From contig NZ_CP025546.1 in NCBI RefSeq assembly GCF_003614435.1, positions 806,001-870,000 on the forward strand: 64,000 nt of DNA. The letters are read 5' to 3'. Of this stretch, positions 45,295 through 52,295 are shown piece after piece. The translations under genes were made by a program, and so were the position numbers. The notes beneath the pieces are model-generated. The model did not search any database, was not told the origin of the DNA, and was given only the letters and a program-made list of their open reading frames with translations. Source of the stretch: Mycobacterium paragordonae (GTDB lineage Bacteria > Actinomycetota > Actinomycetes > Mycobacteriales > Mycobacteriaceae). Numbering within the stretch: the stretch's first letter is position 1; the number at the start of each line of letters is the position of its first letter.

Positions 45295-45450
45295 GGTCCT
45301 CCTTCAGTCTGGTCACTCCAGCGCATATACCGTACGACTCAACCAGCCGAAAGTCGCCTGACATCGAGACATCGTCGTAGCGTTTAGCCGGCGCCCCGCG
45401 GGTGAACACCCTCGTGGCGTGATCCCCCCAGAGAAAGAAGGAGAATCTTC

Positions 45451-45642
45451 ATGGCACTTGACGATGACGACATCACCACATCTGGTGGCGGAGGCGAAGG
45501 AACGGCCGATGGCGGCTCCAACCCCGAAGGTCACGACGGCGGAGCCGACGGAACCGCGAGTGAGGGTTCGGGCGGCGAAGGTACCGCCGACGGCGGCTCG
45601 AACCCCGAAGGCCACGACGGAGGAGCCGACGGGACTGCGTGA
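45451..45642 (+). CDS. 63-aa tandem-repeat peptide, candidate RiPP precursor
   Basis: Short acidic/Gly-rich peptide: a leader-like MALDDDDITTSGG followed by an exact 23-residue repeat at residues 14-36 and 41-63, period 27. Each repeat contains GTADGGSNPEGHDGGADGTA and there is no Cys, aromatic or basic residue except His28 and His55. The two copies differ at nine codons, all synonymous, so the amino acid sequence is under strong selection. AAGGAG lies 8-10 bases before the ATG. Ten bases on begins a JmjC-like oxygenase, then a ferredoxin-like protein. I know of no named family for it; I infer a substrate peptide for those enzymes. Confidence 0.82.
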   Translation: MALDDDDITTSGGGGEGTADGGSNPEGHDGGADGTASEGSGGEGTADGGSNPEGHDGGADGTA

Positions 45643-45652
45643 CCGCCGCTAG

Positions 45653-46870
45653 ATGTTAAGACGCTGCATCGCCACCGATGCTGGGTTGTTCGCAACCCAG
45701 CATTGGGGCCGCAGTCCACTGCTCAGCCGCGCCGACGCGCTGCCCCGCGACTTCAGCGACCTGCTGTCCCCGGCCGCGGTCGACGAGTTGATCGGGCGGC
45801 GCGGTGTACGGACACCGTTCATCCGGATGGCCAAGGCCGGCGACGTGCTGGCCCGGGACTGCTACACCGGCCCGGCCGGCTTCGGCGCCGAGATGCCCGA
45901 CCAGGTGGACTCGGCAAAGGTGCTGGCCGAGTTCGCTTCCGGCGCGACGATCGTCCTGCAGGGCTTGCATCGCTTGTGGCCGCCCATGATCGACTTCGTC
46001 CGATCCATGGTCGACGACCTGGGCCATCCTGTGCAGGCCAACGCCTATGTGACGCCGCCGGGCAGCCGCGGGTTCGACGCCCACTACGACGTCCACGACG
46101 TTTTCATCCTGCAGGTGTCGGGAGAGAAGCACTGGACGGTGCACCCGCCCGTCCATGAGCATCCGTTGCCGTCGCAACCGTGGACGCAGCACCGGGAGGC
46201 CATCGCCGCACGTGTCGCTGACGAGCCGGTCATCGATACCGTGTTGTCGGCCGGCGATGCGCTGTACCTGCCCCGCGGCTGGGTGCACTCCGCCCGTTCG
46301 CAGGAGGCAACGTCGATCCACCTGACCATCGGGGTATCCGCGCTGACGTCGCTGGACGTGGTTAGTGCCGTCATCGACACGCTCGCCGCGGATGCCGAGT
46401 TCAGGAAATCGCTGCCGATGGGCATCGACGCCACCAACCGCGACGAGATGGCAGCGACAGCGAGCAAGATCATGTCTCAGGTAGTCGACGCCGTTCGCGA
46501 TCGGGCCGCCGACCTCGGCGGCGGGGCCGCCGCTCGGTTGTCCGACCGTCATGCCGCGAGCACCAGACCCGTTGCGGTGCAGGTACTTGCCAGCCTGGAC
46601 GCGGCCGAACGGGCCGGCGAGGTATCGGTTCGGTGGCGCCACGGGCTCGTCGGCGCACCCCGGCTCGACGGTGGCCGAGTCGTACTGCGGCTCCCGGACC
46701 GGACCATGACGTTCCCCGAGTCGTGCGCCCCTGCGATCGAAGCGCTTCATCGCGGGCTCGTCGCGGATGCCGACACCCTGCCCGGCCTCGACCACGCCGA
46801 CTCGACGGTCCTGATCCGCCGGCTGTTGCGCGAGGCAGTTGTGGTGCCGGTCGGGCCAGAGCAGGGATGA
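45653..46870 (+). CDS. JmjC-like cupin (Fe(II)/2-oxoglutarate) oxygenase
   Basis: A 405-residue protein of the cupin_4/JmjC type, a family that includes ribosomal protein hydroxylases. The opening FATQHWGRSPLLSR matches the family N-terminus. The iron-binding HxD is in FDAHYDVHDVFILQVSGEKHW and the distal His in LPRGWVHSA. A C-terminal winged-helix-like part follows (about 230-405). It likely hydroxylates a peptide or protein side chain, and the adjacent tandem-repeat peptide is the obvious candidate. The ATG has no Shine-Dalgarno and lies 10 bases after the peptide stop, suggesting coupling. Overlaps the next gene by ATGA. Confidence 0.85.
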   Translation: MLRRCIATDAGLFATQHWGRSPLLSRADALPRDFSDLLSPAAVDELIGRRGVRTPFIRMAKAGDVLARDCYTGPAGFGAEMPDQVDSAKVLAEFASGATIVLQGLHRLWPPMIDFVRSMVDDLGHPVQANAYVTPPGSRGFDAHYDVHDVFILQVSGEKHWTVHPPVHEHPLPSQPWTQHREAIAARVADEPVIDTVLSAGDALYLPRGWVHSARSQEATSIHLTIGVSALTSLDVVSAVIDTLAADAEFRKSLPMGIDATNRDEMAATASKIMSQVVDAVRDRAADLGGGAAARLSDRHAASTRPVAVQVLASLDAAERAGEVSVRWRHGLVGAPRLDGGRVVLRLPDRTMTFPESCAPAIEALHRGLVADADTLPGLDHADSTVLIRRLLREAVVVPVGPEQG

Positions 46871-47754
46871 ACGCGCCGCGGCGAATTCCGTGCAGTGACC
46901 AATCGCTGACGCGAAACGACCCGTTGTACGGCACCGCATCGGCCGGACACGCATGGGCGATGCTCGAATTGTCCGGCGGCTGGGGACAATCGGCGTTCCT
47001 GGACTCACCGGCGATCATCGATCGGGAACTCGGGCGCGCGATTTGTCGCCGCATCGAGGCGGCGCGCATGCGCGTCACCGCGATACGTCGTCCCGGGCGT
47101 CGTCCCGAGACGCCGCGCTGGCGGTGGTTTATTGCTTACTGCGACGAGGGTCAGGAGGCGCTGTACCACGGTGAGGTCGACGGACCCCGCGACTATCTGG
47201 ACATCGCGCTGGACGGCTCTGACGGTGAGCGGGTTGCCGGCCCGCTGGTCACGGTGTGTGCGCACGGCAAGCACGATCAGTGCTGCGCGGTGCGGGGCCG
47301 CTCAGCGGCGGCCGACATCGCGGCGGAGTATCCCGAATTAGTCTGGGAATGCTCACATCTGGGTGGAGACCGTTTTGCGGCGACGATGCTGGTGCTGCCC
47401 GAGGGCCTGTGTTACGGACGGGTCGATTCGACCGACTCCGCCGGCCTCGTGCGCCTGTATCTGGACGGGCGGCTGGACCACCGGTACTTGCGCGGACGTA
47501 CCAGCCTGCCGCACGCGGTCCAGGCCGCACAGCACTTCGCGCGTGACGCATTGGGGGACAATAGGATTGATGCCCTGTCGCCGCTGAGCGTTGAGCATCG
47601 GCCGGACGGCATTCACGTGGTGCTCGCGGCCGAGCCGGGACCTGTGGAAGTAGTCATGGTCGAGCAGATGTCCGAGCCGCTGCTGTCCATGTGTCGGGCT
47701 TCGGTCCCCGGGCCGGTTCGCACGTATGTGTTGGTGTCGGTGACGTCGTCCTGA
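46867..47754 (+). CDS. Sucrase/ferredoxin-like [2Fe-2S] protein
   Basis: A 295-residue protein of the Suc_Fer-like family. It has the thioredoxin-like [2Fe-2S] ferredoxin motifs VCAHGKHDQCCAVRG and WECSHLGGDRFAATMLVLPEGLCYGR. It could supply electrons or bind iron-sulphur for the oxygenase, with which it overlaps by 4 bases. It is the last gene of the peptide/oxygenase unit. Possible alternative: an independent redox protein. The sequence shows only the fold, not the partner. Confidence 0.83.
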   Translation: MNAPRRIPCSDQSLTRNDPLYGTASAGHAWAMLELSGGWGQSAFLDSPAIIDRELGRAICRRIEAARMRVTAIRRPGRRPETPRWRWFIAYCDEGQEALYHGEVDGPRDYLDIALDGSDGERVAGPLVTVCAHGKHDQCCAVRGRSAAADIAAEYPELVWECSHLGGDRFAATMLVLPEGLCYGRVDSTDSAGLVRLYLDGRLDHRYLRGRTSLPHAVQAAQHFARDALGDNRIDALSPLSVEHRPDGIHVVLAAEPGPVEVVMVEQMSEPLLSMCRASVPGPVRTYVLVSVTSS

Positions 47755-47954: not shown

Positions 47955-49311
47955 GTTGCCTCATGTCAAGATGCGCGCGAAGGTTTGTTGGTTGCCTCAC
48001 GTGAACGTGCGCGCTTGGTGAGTGGAGTCGGGACGCCGGCTGGGGCTTTGCTGGTGGTCAGGGTGAAGAGTTGGTTGGTCAACGCCTGAATCTGGCGTTG
48101 GGTGGCGGCTGGGTTGATCAGTGAGTAGGTCCGCTTGAGCGCCACGATGCGGTCCACGGTCATACTCGGGTGGTCGGTCGCCCGGTGAAACGGGGTGGTG
48201 GCCGTGTCGTGTTTTCTGGATACCTTGGCGCCTTTGCGGACTTTGGATACCAATTTCTGCTGGGGGTGGAAGTAGTTGGTCAGCTGTGACTGCATTCGCC
48301 AGATCTCGTTGAGTAGCAAGAGTTCTGACGCTGTGTCGTAGCGGTAGTAGCCGACCACGGTGCGGACCACCACCCAGTTCTTCTGCTCGACGTGGCAGCC
48401 GTCGTTCTTGTTGCCCGGCCGTGACCGGGTGAAGGTGATTCGCCGGTCTTGGCACCATGCCAAGAGGTCGTCGTTGATGAATTCCGATCCGTTATCGCAG
48501 TCCACGCCGAGGATCGGGAACGGCATCGCGGCGGCGATCTGATTGAGGGCGGCCAGGATGTGTTTGGCCGTCCTGTCCGGTAGCGAGCGGCTTTCGGTCC
48601 AGCCGGTGGCGATATCGGTGACCGTCAACGTGAACGCATGGCCTCCACCCCGATTGCCGCCGTCATGGAAGACCGTGTCGATCTCGACGAAGCCGGGCAC
48701 AGCGTCATCCCATTGGGCCCAGGTGCGCACCGGGATCTGACTTCGGATCAGCGACCCCGGCTTGGTGCCCACGCGTCCTTTGATCTTGTATCTGGCCCGT
48801 TCATCGGCCAGGCGGCGATCGATGGTGGCCGCCGACATCGATACCAGCAGTGCCGCCGTCTCGTCACTGATGACCAGCTCCCGGAAGTGGCGCAGCACGG
48901 CTACCAGCTCGGTGAGCATGGGTGCGAGCCGTTTGCCGGCGGGCATGCCCAGCACCGTCCAGCAGATCGTCAGCGCAGCAATCACATCCTCGCCGTATTT
49001 CACGGGCCGCGGACTTCGTGCAGACATGATCCTGGGGGCCAGCGCGGCTTTCAGTGCCTTGCGGGCATGGCTGCGATGCCAGCCCGTGTTGGCGCACAAC
49101 TCGTCAAGAATCCGGGTCTTACCGCGCTTACCGGCCTGCTGATAACGAGTCGCCGCTGATTGGGTCACCGCCCTGCGCTCTGCCAATGTCAACCCCATCA
49201 ACCGGGCCTACCGAACTCATTGCTGACCCGACCAGGCAGGCGCGCCGTCCACGCGCGCATTCTCGATGAGGCAACGAATCACCCTTTCGCGCGCATTTCT
49301 GACGAGTCAAC
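47955..49311 (-). mobile_element. Intact insertion sequence with doubled terminal repeats (~1.36 kb)
   Basis: Bounded by imperfect ~23-bp terminal inverted repeats: outer left at 47955-47978 (GTTGCCTCATGTCAAGATGC) and outer right at 49289-49311 (reverse complement GTTGACTCGTCAGAAATGCG). A second copy of the repeat lies inside each end, at 47991-48014 and 49253-49275. Such doubled ends resemble transposase-binding-site arrays. No clear target duplication was found. It encodes one DDE transposase. Confidence 0.8.
47966..49198 (-). CDS. DDE transposase of IS at 47955-49311
   Basis: A 410-residue transposase with an integrase-core (rve) fold. The catalytic triad is read from EIDTVFHDGG (first Asp), DCDNGSEFI (second Asp) and CHVEQKN (Glu). 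The N-terminus is a helical DNA-binding region (AERRAVTQSAATRYQQAGKRGK). The stop codon lies inside the left terminal repeat. I could not assign it to a named IS family with confidence; it resembles unclassified (ISNCY-type) elements. The ATG at 49198 was chosen; a TTG one codon upstream is possible. Confidence 0.85.
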   Translation of the reverse strand: MGLTLAERRAVTQSAATRYQQAGKRGKTRILDELCANTGWHRSHARKALKAALAPRIMSARSPRPVKYGEDVIAALTICWTVLGMPAGKRLAPMLTELVAVLRHFRELVISDETAALLVSMSAATIDRRLADERARYKIKGRVGTKPGSLIRSQIPVRTWAQWDDAVPGFVEIDTVFHDGGNRGGGHAFTLTVTDIATGWTESRSLPDRTAKHILAALNQIAAAMPFPILGVDCDNGSEFINDDLLAWCQDRRITFTRSRPGNKNDGCHVEQKNWVVVRTVVGYYRYDTASELLLLNEIWRMQSQLTNYFHPQQKLVSKVRKGAKVSRKHDTATTPFHRATDHPSMTVDRIVALKRTYSLINPAATQRQIQALTNQLFTLTTSKAPAGVPTPLTKRARSREATNKPSRAS

Positions 49312-49329
49312 GCGGTCGGGGGTAGCGGC

Positions 49330-49342
49330 TATAATCGAAAGT
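49330..49342 (+). promoter_or_regulatory. TATAAT promoter of the 13E12 gene, now cut off
   Basis: A perfect -10 box TATAAT (49330-49335) lies 7 bases before the ATG at 49343, which would give a leaderless transcript of the original 13E12 gene. The IS481 insertion 36 bases after that ATG separates the promoter from most of the gene. Confidence 0.6.
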
Positions 49343-49378
49343 ATGTTCGATAGGCTGCCGTTCCTCGCACCCGGGATG
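49343..49378 (+). pseudogene. Orphaned first 12 codons of the 13E12 gene
   Basis: ATG at 49343 opens MFDRLPFLAPGM, which runs straight into the IS481-family element. Its last 15 bases (49364-49378) are repeated at 50817-50831 on the other side of the element. Joining there restores one frame with the 13E12 gene (50829 onward). Confidence 0.85.
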
Positions 49379-50816
49379 TGTCATCTCCCAGGACATCGGT
49401 GACAGTTCTGTGTCAGGACATCGGTGACAGTTCGGGCTGTGTTGGTGGTGACATTTCTGCCTCAGGGTTCGGGTGGTGGCTGTTAATGAACCGATCGATC
49501 CTCTGGTCCGGCTTGCTATCTCGCAGTGGCCCGATGACGCGCCCCGCGGGGCGGTTTCGACGTTCTGCGCCGAGTACGGCATCTCCCGCAAGTCGTTCTA
49601 CGAGTTGCGTAAACGCGCCAGGGCCGACGGGCCGGCCGCAGTACTTGAACCCAGGACGAGACGACCTAAGTCGAGCCCATCGAAGTTGAGCGATGCGATC
49701 AAGGAGCAGGCTGTGGCCGTGCGTGCCGCACTGGAGGCCTCCGGCCTGGATCACGGGCCGATCAGTGTGCACGAAAAGATGCGCGCGATGGGCCTACAAC
49801 CGGTGCCTTCCACGGCATCGCTGGCGCGCATCTTCCGTGAGGCTGGCGTGGCTCGTCTGGAGCCGAAGAAGAAGCCCCGCTCGGCATGGCGGCGGTTCGT
49901 CTATCCGGCGCCGAATGCGTGCTGGCAACTCGACGCGACCGAGTACGTGCTGAGCGGCGGACGAAAGTGCGTAATCTTCCAGCTCATCGACGACCACTCC
50001 CGCTACGCGGTCGCTTCCCACGTCGCATTCAGCGAGACCGCCACGGACGCGATCGCAGTGGTGGACAAGGCCATCGCCGCCCACGGAGTGCCCCAACGAC
50101 TGCTGTCGGACAACGGGCTCGCGCTTAACCCCTCGCGGCGTGGATACCTGGGCCAGCTCGTAGAACACCTCGCAAGCCTGGGCGTGGCGGCGATGACCGG
50201 CAAGCCCTACAAACCGACCACCCAGGGCAAGAACGAACGCTTCCATCAGACCTTGTTCCGCTACTTGGACAAGCAGCCTCTCGCGCGCACGCTGGCCGAG
50301 TTGCAGACCCAAATCGACGCCTTCGACGACATCTACAACAACGAGCGCCCCCACCAAGGGCTGCCTGGCCGCATCACACCCCGCGCGGCCTGGGAGGCCA
50401 CCGAGAAGGCGCAGGCTCCCCGCCCCAAACCCGACCAGCCCTTCTTCGTCCAAGCTGCACTTAAGCGGCACCGGCCTGCACCCGCACCCAAAGACCTGCC
50501 CGCCGGCACCAGCGTCAGGACACTGACCACCGCCGGAACATTCATGCTCGCGGGGGTCCAGTACAAGGTCGATGGACGACGCGGCTTTGACCAGGTCCTG
50601 GTCGTCACCAACGGCGACAAGATCATCGTCGCCGACCTGGACGGCGAAGTCCTCATCGAGCACACAAGACCCGCACCCGGGGTGACTTACGTCGGCAACG
50701 GACGACCCCGCGGCCCACACCCCAAAAACGACGACAAAACGTCACCGAAGTCCTGACACACCAACTGGCACCGATGTCCTGACACAGAACTGTCACCGAT
50801 GTCCTGAGACATCACA
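49379..50816 (+). mobile_element. IS481-family element inserted in the 13E12 gene (1438 bp)
   Basis: Ends are TGTCATCTCCC... on the left and the inverted TGTGATGTCTC... on the right. The flanking 15-base CTCGCACCCGGGATG (49364-49378, 50817-50831) is an exact target duplication. Each end carries tandem copies of a 16-base motif (AGGACATCGGTGACAG), 25 bases apart: 49390-49405 and 49415-49430 on the left, and 50765-50780 (one mismatch) and 50790-50805 in inverted orientation on the right. Fresh ends and an exact duplication suggest a recent insertion. Confidence 0.95.
49473..50756 (+). CDS. IS481-family transposase
   Basis: A 427-residue transposase. The N-terminal helix-turn-helix (STFCAEYGISRKSFYELRKRARADG) is followed by an integrase core with the triad in CWQLDATEYV, LLSDNGLAL and GKNERFHQTLFRYL (D-D-E), then a C-terminal beta domain. 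It fills most of the IS481 element. Intact, so the element is probably still active. Confidence 0.93.
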   Translation: MVAVNEPIDPLVRLAISQWPDDAPRGAVSTFCAEYGISRKSFYELRKRARADGPAAVLEPRTRRPKSSPSKLSDAIKEQAVAVRAALEASGLDHGPISVHEKMRAMGLQPVPSTASLARIFREAGVARLEPKKKPRSAWRRFVYPAPNACWQLDATEYVLSGGRKCVIFQLIDDHSRYAVASHVAFSETATDAIAVVDKAIAAHGVPQRLLSDNGLALNPSRRGYLGQLVEHLASLGVAAMTGKPYKPTTQGKNERFHQTLFRYLDKQPLARTLAELQTQIDAFDDIYNNERPHQGLPGRITPRAAWEATEKAQAPRPKPDQPFFVQAALKRHRPAPAPKDLPAGTSVRTLTTAGTFMLAGVQYKVDGRRGFDQVLVVTNGDKIIVADLDGEVLIEHTRPAPGVTYVGNGRPRGPHPKNDDKTSPKS

Positions 50817-50828
50817 CTCGCACCCGGG

Positions 50829-52295
50829 ATGGAAGGGTATGACGGCTACCTGGAGGTGGTGGCCCACCGCAGGGCACTTCTAGAAAAGACCGAGGAATCG
50901 GCCGGTTGGATGACGCGGATCGGTGCGGCGGCGCGGGTGGTCAATCAGGCCCAGGCCGCGGAGTTGGTGGCGATCGGGCAGTTGTTCTCCCACCGCTCGG
51001 TGGCGGGCTCTGAGACGGGGCAGTGGGCGATCGACACGTTCAAAGCGGTGGCCGGGGAGGTCGCCGCGGGGCTGAAGATCAGCCAGGGCCGCGCAGAGAC
51101 CAAGCTGCATTATGCCCGGGCGATGCGCGAGCGCCTACCGCAGGTCGCGGCGGTGTTCTGTGCCGGGGACATTGACCTGGAGGCGTTCGCGACGATCGTG
51201 TTCCGCACCGAGCTGATCGAGGACCCCCAGGTGCTGGCGGCGGTGGATGAGCGGGTCGCCGCGCGGGTGACACGGTGGCCGTCGCTGAGCCGGGGGCGGT
51301 TGTCGCAGAAGATCGACCAGATCGTCGCCGACGCCGACGCCGATGCCGTCCGGCGGCGCACAGAGGCCCAGGCTGATCGGGAGGTGTGGATCAGCCAGGA
51401 GCTCAACGGGTTGTGCCAGGTGGAGGGACGCCTGCGCAGCACCGATGCCAAAGCCCTCGATGCGCGGATCTCGGCGTTGGCGGCCACGGTGTGCCCGAAC
51501 GATCCGCGCACGGTGGCTCAGCGCCGCGCTGATGCCATGGGGGCGCTGGCCGCCGATGCCACCCGGCTGGGCTGTGAATGCGGCCGCGCCGATTGCACCG
51601 CCGCCGGGCGTAAGCCCGCCTCGCCGGTGGTGATCCATGTGGTCGCCGAACAGGCCACCCTCAATGGCCACAGCGACCAGCCGGGGTGCCTGTTGGGTGG
51701 CGAGGACCTGATCACCCCCGAACTGTTGGCCGAGTTGGCCCTGTCCGCCAAGCAGGTGCCGTTGATCCATCCCGGCTACGCCGCCCCCGAACCGCACTAC
51801 CACCCCTCACCAGCGCTCGCCGATTTCGTGCGGGCCCGGGACCTGACCTGCCGCTGGCCGGGCTGTGATGTGCCGGCCACGCACTGCGATGTCGACCACA
51901 CCATCCCCTACGCCTCCGGTGGGCCCACCCATGCGGGCAACCTCAAGTGCTACTGCCGTACGCATCATTTGATGAAAACGTTTTGGGGCTGGACCGAGAA
52001 ACAACTCGCCGACGGCACCTTGATCCTGACCTCCCCGGGTGGGGACACCCACGTCACCACCCCCGGCTCCGCGTTGCTGTTTCCCAGCCTGTGCCATGCG
52101 GTGGGTGGGATGCCCGCCCCCGAAGCCCAAACCCCACCGGCGGATTACTGCGCCGAGCGCACCGCGATGATGCCCACCCGCCGGCGCACCCGCACCCAGG
52201 CCCGCGCCGCCCGCGTCACCGCCGAACGCCGCGCCAACCACCAAGCCCGCATCACCGCCACCGGCCCACCCGACGACGAACCCCCACCCTTCTAG
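50829..52295 (+). CDS. 13E12-repeat DUF222/HNH endonuclease, 5' displaced by IS481
   Basis: 488 residues with the DUF222 region (N-terminal to ~300) and a C-terminal HNH nuclease motif (LTCRWPGCDVPATHCDVDHTIPYASGG; LKCYCRTHHLMK). This is the mycobacterial 13E12 family and the position corresponds to Rv0393 next to ndhA. The present ATG is inside the 15-base target duplication. Without the IS the protein would start 11 residues earlier at 49343 and be 499 residues long. It may still be expressed from IS-borne signals. The 3' end overlaps the convergent secreted-protein gene by 4 bases. Confidence 0.9.
   Translation: MEGYDGYLEVVAHRRALLEKTEESAGWMTRIGAAARVVNQAQAAELVAIGQLFSHRSVAGSETGQWAIDTFKAVAGEVAAGLKISQGRAETKLHYARAMRERLPQVAAVFCAGDIDLEAFATIVFRTELIEDPQVLAAVDERVAARVTRWPSLSRGRLSQKIDQIVADADADAVRRRTEAQADREVWISQELNGLCQVEGRLRSTDAKALDARISALAATVCPNDPRTVAQRRADAMGALAADATRLGCECGRADCTAAGRKPASPVVIHVVAEQATLNGHSDQPGCLLGGEDLITPELLAELALSAKQVPLIHPGYAAPEPHYHPSPALADFVRARDLTCRWPGCDVPATHCDVDHTIPYASGGPTHAGNLKCYCRTHHLMKTFWGWTEKQLADGTLILTSPGGDTHVTTPGSALLFPSLCHAVGGMPAPEAQTPPADYCAERTAMMPTRRRTRTQARAARVTAERRANHQARITATGPPDDEPPPF

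Follow-up and report, generated by a model that had tools for sequence, protein, structure and literature searches.

The 64,000-nucleotide stretch of Mycobacterium paragordonae DNA that was analysed here, referred to as the window, contains a three-gene set in which a short Gly/Asp repeat peptide precedes a JmjC-type oxygenase and a Suc_Fer-like [2Fe-2S] protein, and which we judge to represent a real, widespread and apparently undescribed RiPP-like class. The explanation that we consider probable on balance is a minimal RiPP-type system, in which the JmjC enzyme carries out a leader-guided beta-hydroxylation of Asp residues in the repeat core. The features of the gene set in the window are as follows.

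45382..45407, + strand: candidate promoter, SigF-like and weak (GTTT 69 bases before the peptide start, N16, GTGAAC)
45451..45642, + strand: precursor-like peptide of 63 aa (leader M-A-L-D-D-D-D-I-T-T, then two 23-residue Gly/Asp units)
45454..45480, + strand: leader motif A-L-D-D-D-D-I-T-T, nearly fixed among 64 peptides
45490..45558, + strand: core unit 1, 69-nt repeat, residues 14-36
45571..45639, + strand: core unit 2, 69-nt repeat, residues 41-63, with nine synonymous differences from unit 1
45653..46870, + strand: putative JmjC_2 (PF08007) 2-oxoglutarate oxygenase of 405 aa (His144, Asp146, His212 and Lys159 invariant in 39 sequences)
46867..47754, + strand: predicted Suc_Fer-like (PF06999) thioredoxin-like [2Fe-2S] protein of 295 aa (C131-X8-C140, H164-X3-D168)

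The layout given in the initial annotation was confirmed on the sequence, namely an AAGGAG site before the ORF of the 63-residue peptide, 10 bases between its TGA stop and the ATG of the JmjC gene, and an ATGA overlap (gap of -4 bases) of the JmjC stop with the Suc_Fer start. Pfam assigned the oxygenase to PF08007 (JmjC_2, E 6.7e-29) and its partner to PF06999 (Suc_Fer-like, E 3.7e-16), while the peptide had no Pfam match at E 0.1; its membership of a known family was rejected, as NCBIfam gave a single chance-level match (E 0.54) far below the cut-off. The best named relatives of the locus are those at L002 and L003, which are M. gordonae-like. Immediately 3' of the set (window positions 47966-52295) there are a DUF222 gene and two transposase genes of the rve type.

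Occurrence and conservation of the repeat peptide

The initial annotation had made its reading depend on a conserved peptide next to orthologous oxygenases, and such a peptide is present at all 64 related loci and in all 55 Mycobacterium genomes with a close orthologue. In the scan of species genomes, the Gly/Asp repeat peptide lay upstream of the oxygenase and on the same strand at 64 of 64 loci, two of which (L014 and L064) were counted as bearing the peptide with its frame interrupted or running on owing to broken frames or N runs. These loci belong to Mycobacterium sensu lato (14), Gordonia (one), Microbacteriaceae (two), an unplaced actinomycete (one), Blastococcus (four), Raineyella (one) and Streptomyces/Actinacidiphila (41), and the gene set thus ranges over at least six actinobacterial families. 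A Suc_Fer gene follows the oxygenase at 61 of them, and at the other three the contig ends there. Antisense shadows aside, any other ORF of at least 90 aa is shared by the neighbourhoods of at most three of the seven groups; additional cluster genes were considered and rejected, as the other shared ORF clusters either resembled antisense shadows of the two enzymes, corresponded to the peptide or were sporadic. Among these ORFs in the seven groups, a conserved gene for an exporter or a protease is lacking, which counts against the RiPP reading.

Within Mycobacterium, the oxygenase was matched at E 1e-15 in 82 of 148 genomes, 55 of which hold a close orthologue (E below 1e-100). A degenerate HDGGADG pattern occurs at least twice in every one of these 55, and of the other 93 genomes, G274 alone reaches two hits, which lie on separate contigs. 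Peptide arrays of G252, G369 and G318 were seen at the loci L132, L135 and L162, and in G355 (contig C1, 60595-61774) the array is intact beside an oxygenase split into two frames, an apparent enzyme decay or sequencing error. Plasmids were rejected as carriers, since the gene set gave no DNA match and the protein search returned 39 records, all below 60% identity (28-34% among the matches listed, 15 of the 39). A shared chromosomal site was likewise rejected: when 17 loci were compared over the sequence available around them, none but L002-L004, which are M. gordonae-like, had neighbours in common (ndh and metZ).

At the scale of the phylum, the oxygenase was matched at E 1e-15 in 35 of 246 Actinomycetota genomes with a completeness of at least 90%, and 29 loci (L066-L094) were read besides that of the window, leaving out G183, G215 and the second match of G013. 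The eight close loci L066-L073 carry a DGGA-type peptide. L074 has the JmjC gene with an acidic ORF and no recognisable repeat peptide, and its genome encodes a Suc_Fer protein with HX3H, which counts against the proposal; L084 starts at a contig end and stands outside the 19 assessable distant loci. At these 19, where the oxygenases are 32-41% identical (tblastn), there is a short upstream ORF with other Asp-rich repeats, some of these ORFs having been chosen by eye among several; the ORF at L094 is preceded by no evident ribosome-binding site. The cores at 17 of the 19 are dense Asp/Ala/Gly/Thr arrays, and those at L077 and L094 are longer repeats of their own kind.

A leader motif connects these unlike cores. 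The pattern [LIV]-x-D-x-[DE]-[IM]-x-T is found exactly at 13 of the 19 assessable distant loci and with a departure at one position at L076, L077, L080, L085, L089 and L094. The leader in the window fits the same pattern, and its positions are nearly fixed among the 64 mycobacterial-type peptides. However, it was seen in none of the 40 Streptomyces peptides scanned, though they keep the core, which counts against a leader common to the whole group.

As a control, 20 loci with distant JmjC_2 relatives only were used, 17 mycobacterial and three from other actinobacteria, and neither a Suc_Fer match nor a repeat peptide was found beside any of these paralogues. A rescan of the 800 bases before the aligned start flagged one of the 20, as opposed to 91 of 93 cassette loci (L022 and L077 were missed); the flagged paralogue locus, L111, has a 40-residue stretch with eight Asp and with neither repeat nor leader motif. 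In an unrooted tree of 77 proteins, 18 of the 20 distant paralogues form one cluster with a support of 100/99. The remaining two, from Streptomyces (L112 and L113), are very divergent and attach among the peptide-bearing proteins by a very long branch (2.5 changes per site), a placement that we regard as an artefact.

The repeat structure described in the initial annotation holds: the 23-residue unit is present twice (residues 14-36 and 41-63), its 69-nt copies are 87% identical, and the nine codons at which they differ are all synonymous, an outcome with P of about 7e-6 if no constraint is assumed and 27% of single changes are synonymous. Over 140 within-gene unit pairs from 64 peptides (63 mycobacterial and one from Gordonia, at least five strains being counted twice and the frame-broken L014 and L118 dropped), the N/S ratio is 0.07, a rough and uncorrected value. 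Judged from its sequence, the peptide is under strong constraint. A leader-peptide attenuator or a chance ORF was ruled out, because the changes between units are synonymous and the peptide is conserved. The number of repeats ranges from one to seven, with some relatives having a single unit and L028 having seven. A search of 5.8 billion proteins listed 112 relatives of the peptide, of which the named ones are hypothetical proteins, barring one evident mislabel.

Upstream of the peptide, two promoter patterns were counted at 18 loci (17 mycobacterial and one from Gordonia) and in a set of 48, of which at least six are repeat strains of the 18, L138 being left out as no peptide was picked there. 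The stricter form, GTTT-N15-17-GG[CTG]A[AT], occurs at 10 of 18 and 42 of 48 loci, and the looser form, GTTT-N16-G[GT]N[AG]AC, at 12 of the 18 and 31 of the 48, figures that do not count independent events because strains are repeated and all are related; single-base shuffles give about 0.1 or less. The window matches the looser form only. The pattern resembles the SigF consensus in the accessible text of its description (PMC4694148), and a SigF-like promoter would appear to be common to most mycobacterial copies. Its extension beyond the mycobacteria was rejected for the stricter pattern, which was found in one of 40 Streptomyces regions and in none of 14 and 19 others, these regions being partly set by automatic peptide picks of which a few are wrong.

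A hairpin of about -34 kcal/mol with a UUCG loop lies at 45670-45711, within codons 5-20 of the oxygenase gene. Of the 14 loci folded, four (the window, L002, L003 and L004) have a strong hairpin in this first part of the JmjC gene, while L007, L010 and L015 fold there with z about -3 and the remaining loci weakly. The hairpin might lower the output of the enzyme relative to the peptide, but it is placed outside the general mechanism because no locus other than these four, all M. gordonae-like, has it.

The oxygenase and its probable target

In a search against PDB sequences, the JmjC protein matches the chains of NO66 (E 9e-20), MINA and YcfD, and in the NO66 alignment His144, Asp146, Lys159 and His212 each face an identical residue. 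None of the four varies among the 39 aligned sequences, so that both the HxD...H Fe triad and the Lys are present; this Lys of JmjC oxygenases serves 2-oxoglutarate. Given these conserved residues and the NO66-like match, the protein is expected to be a 2-oxoglutarate hydroxylase. Related enzymes hydroxylate His, Asn and Asp, according to the part of the literature accessible here (PMC4543633). A ribosomally encoded precursor-like peptide was found adjoining a putative modifying enzyme, the adjacency looked for in a RiPP, and the modification itself is what we infer. That the peptide is the substrate of the oxygenase appears very probable to us.

The initial annotation had left the site of modification among Asp, Asn, Pro and His. 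The choice narrows to Asp, the sole residue common to all core types. As the pattern used to recognise a unit fixes residues 1, 4 and 5 in the mycobacterial type and 1, 2 and 5 in Streptomyces, only the other positions are informative; among these, Asp is found at unit positions 14 and 18 in 98% of 321 mycobacterial-type units, and the matching Asp (the second and third of the unit) in 99% of 152 Streptomyces units. The 17 dense distant cores consist of 34% Asp, 0.2% His, 0.4% Asn and 1.9% Pro, and for 321 of 348 Asp-Asp distances the value is two or three. Beta-hydroxylation of Asp is favoured because Asp is the only core residue common to all types and, given that the peptide is the substrate, we regard Asp as its likely target.

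Another chemistry on the same peptide, that is, hydroxylation of His or Asn, a cross-link, a desaturation or a shortening of Asp, is the competing explanation that survives best, although we consider it unlikely. In DGGA-type units, a His precedes the second Asp of the unit in 93% (mycobacterial type) and 95% (Streptomyces) of cases, which counts against Asp as the target, and NO66 and MINA are His hydroxylases in the accessible text of PMC4543633; for SmaX, moreover, a conversion of hydroxy-Asp to aminomalonate has been reported (PMC13097080, seen in part). However, this His is mostly replaced by Gln and otherwise by further residues, is absent from the Asp units of Raineyella L045 and is nearly absent from the 17 distant cores. 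The Asn that is found in 98% of mycobacterial-type units corresponds to Ala in 92% of Streptomyces units.

It is more doubtful still that the peptide acts as an unmodified metal-binding or regulatory partner which serves the iron enzyme without being its substrate. Its high content of Asp and His would bind metals, a SigF-like stress promoter precedes most mycobacterial copies, and maturation genes are lacking beside the set, all of which would fit such a role. On the other hand, the leader is kept outside Streptomyces while the cores diverge, the repeat number varies from one to seven as in precursor peptides, and the known JmjC_2 relatives act on residues of peptides or proteins. A ribosomal oxygenase of the YcfD/NO66 type with which the peptide gene merely travels along is very improbable: the match to NO66, MINA and YcfD chains and the labels in source records, for instance ribosomal protein L16 Arg81 hydroxylase, speak for it, but the patchy spread over 35 of 246 genomes of the phylum is unlike a ribosomal housekeeping role, the association with the peptide is tight, and the peptide-less distant paralogues mostly cluster apart.

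The Suc_Fer partner

The cluster motif of Apd1/Aim32 is CX8CXnHX3H in the accessible part of its description (PMC8482512). The Suc_Fer proteins of the cassette share PF06999, C-X8-C and the following H in H-X-G-G with Apd1/Aim32, but whereas the latter end in HX3H (PMC8482512, as far as the text was available), the last position in the cassette is Asp (HX3D) in 84 of 86 proteins; of the other two, one is the frame-broken L064 and one has Cys. The unlinked actinobacterial relatives, taken from a PF06999 survey of 119 genomes and one further genome, have HX3H in nine of nine readable cases (L166, L167, L168, L174, L176, L178, L179, L184 and L194); L164, L165 and L191-L193 have no readable motif, and some matches of the survey have no locus. 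In this sample, HX3D proteins were seen only in genomes with the JmjC gene. One of them (L190, also read as L195) lies about 22 kb from the L094 oxygenase in genome G110, which suggests that the gene set is split there.

An adjoining Suc_Fer gene is missing at L068, L070, L074, L077 and L094. The genomes of L074 and L094 have one elsewhere, and those of L068, L070 and L077 (G243, G192 and G244) gave no match at E 0.001, which counts against a requirement for this protein. Because it is missing beside the oxygenase or from some genomes altogether, the peptide and the JmjC enzyme are regarded as the core of the system and Suc_Fer as accessory; it is a frequent but not obligatory partner. At L091, the Suc_Fer frame as picked has 492 residues as opposed to the usual 300, a fusion or a wrong start.

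Proposed mechanism, known systems and significance

In the explanation that we favour, leader-guided Asp beta-hydroxylation, the short peptide would carry a recognition motif at its N-terminus, followed by a repeat core rich in Asp. The JmjC enzyme would bind the leader and, with Fe(II), O2 and 2-oxoglutarate, beta-hydroxylate Asp residues in the core. A [2Fe-2S] Suc_Fer protein, dedicated to the system and present in the majority of genomes though not in every one, would assist, most simply by keeping the iron of the enzyme reduced or by performing a following redox step. We infer these roles for the leader and the Suc_Fer protein, and it is a guess that the product binds metals and is made under stress. 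The fullest version of the proposal, a phylum-wide RiPP class with the leader [LIV]-x-D-x-[DE]-[IM]-x-T, a JmjC enzyme turning rows of Asp into beta-hydroxyaspartate, a metal-binding and perhaps ferric product, and a Suc_Fer reductase with new Cys2-His-Asp cluster ligands, is a speculative extension that we would not expect to hold in all its parts.

Several known systems resemble parts of the gene set. In biphenomycin-type RiPPs, a JmjC or cupin-like enzyme (BipG/BpmG, PbsQ) hydroxylates a side chain of the precursor (PMC12707348, PMC12257519), but in the accessible text this is a single step on ornithine in a larger cluster with MNIO, rSAM, arginase-type and protease genes, and the same portions of these descriptions mention neither Asp repeats nor a Suc_Fer protein. 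PesHI (PMC13060819) and SmaO/SmaX (PMC13097080) are described, in the portions available, as performing the Asp beta-hydroxylation in a precursor peptide that is proposed here, although they belong to other cluster types (nitrilobacillin and graspetide, respectively). NO66, MINA53, YcfD and FIH are JmjC-type oxygenases with HxD...H and Lys, as here, and FIH can act on Asn, Asp and His residues of repeat proteins; in contrast, their substrates are ribosomal or ankyrin-repeat proteins, and a dedicated neighbouring peptide gene is not described in the accessible part of PMC4543633. Bacterial JmjC proteins related to RRE fusions are found in RiPP-like contexts (PMC12710340, seen in part). A description of the gene set was not found in the literature searched, outside which most subscription papers fall, and the core words of the peptide had no match there either.

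If the explanation is true, the gene set would constitute a RiPP class with a JmjC oxygenase as its principal enzyme, so that for a large group of JmjC proteins in bacteria, at present annotated as cupins or L16 hydroxylases, the substrate would become testable. The leader common to unlike cores makes the group minable, and the exchange of Asp for His in the Suc_Fer protein provides a sharp prediction on iron-sulphur ligation. A poly-hydroxyaspartate, if that is the product, would be unusual among peptide polymers and would probably have an affinity for metals.
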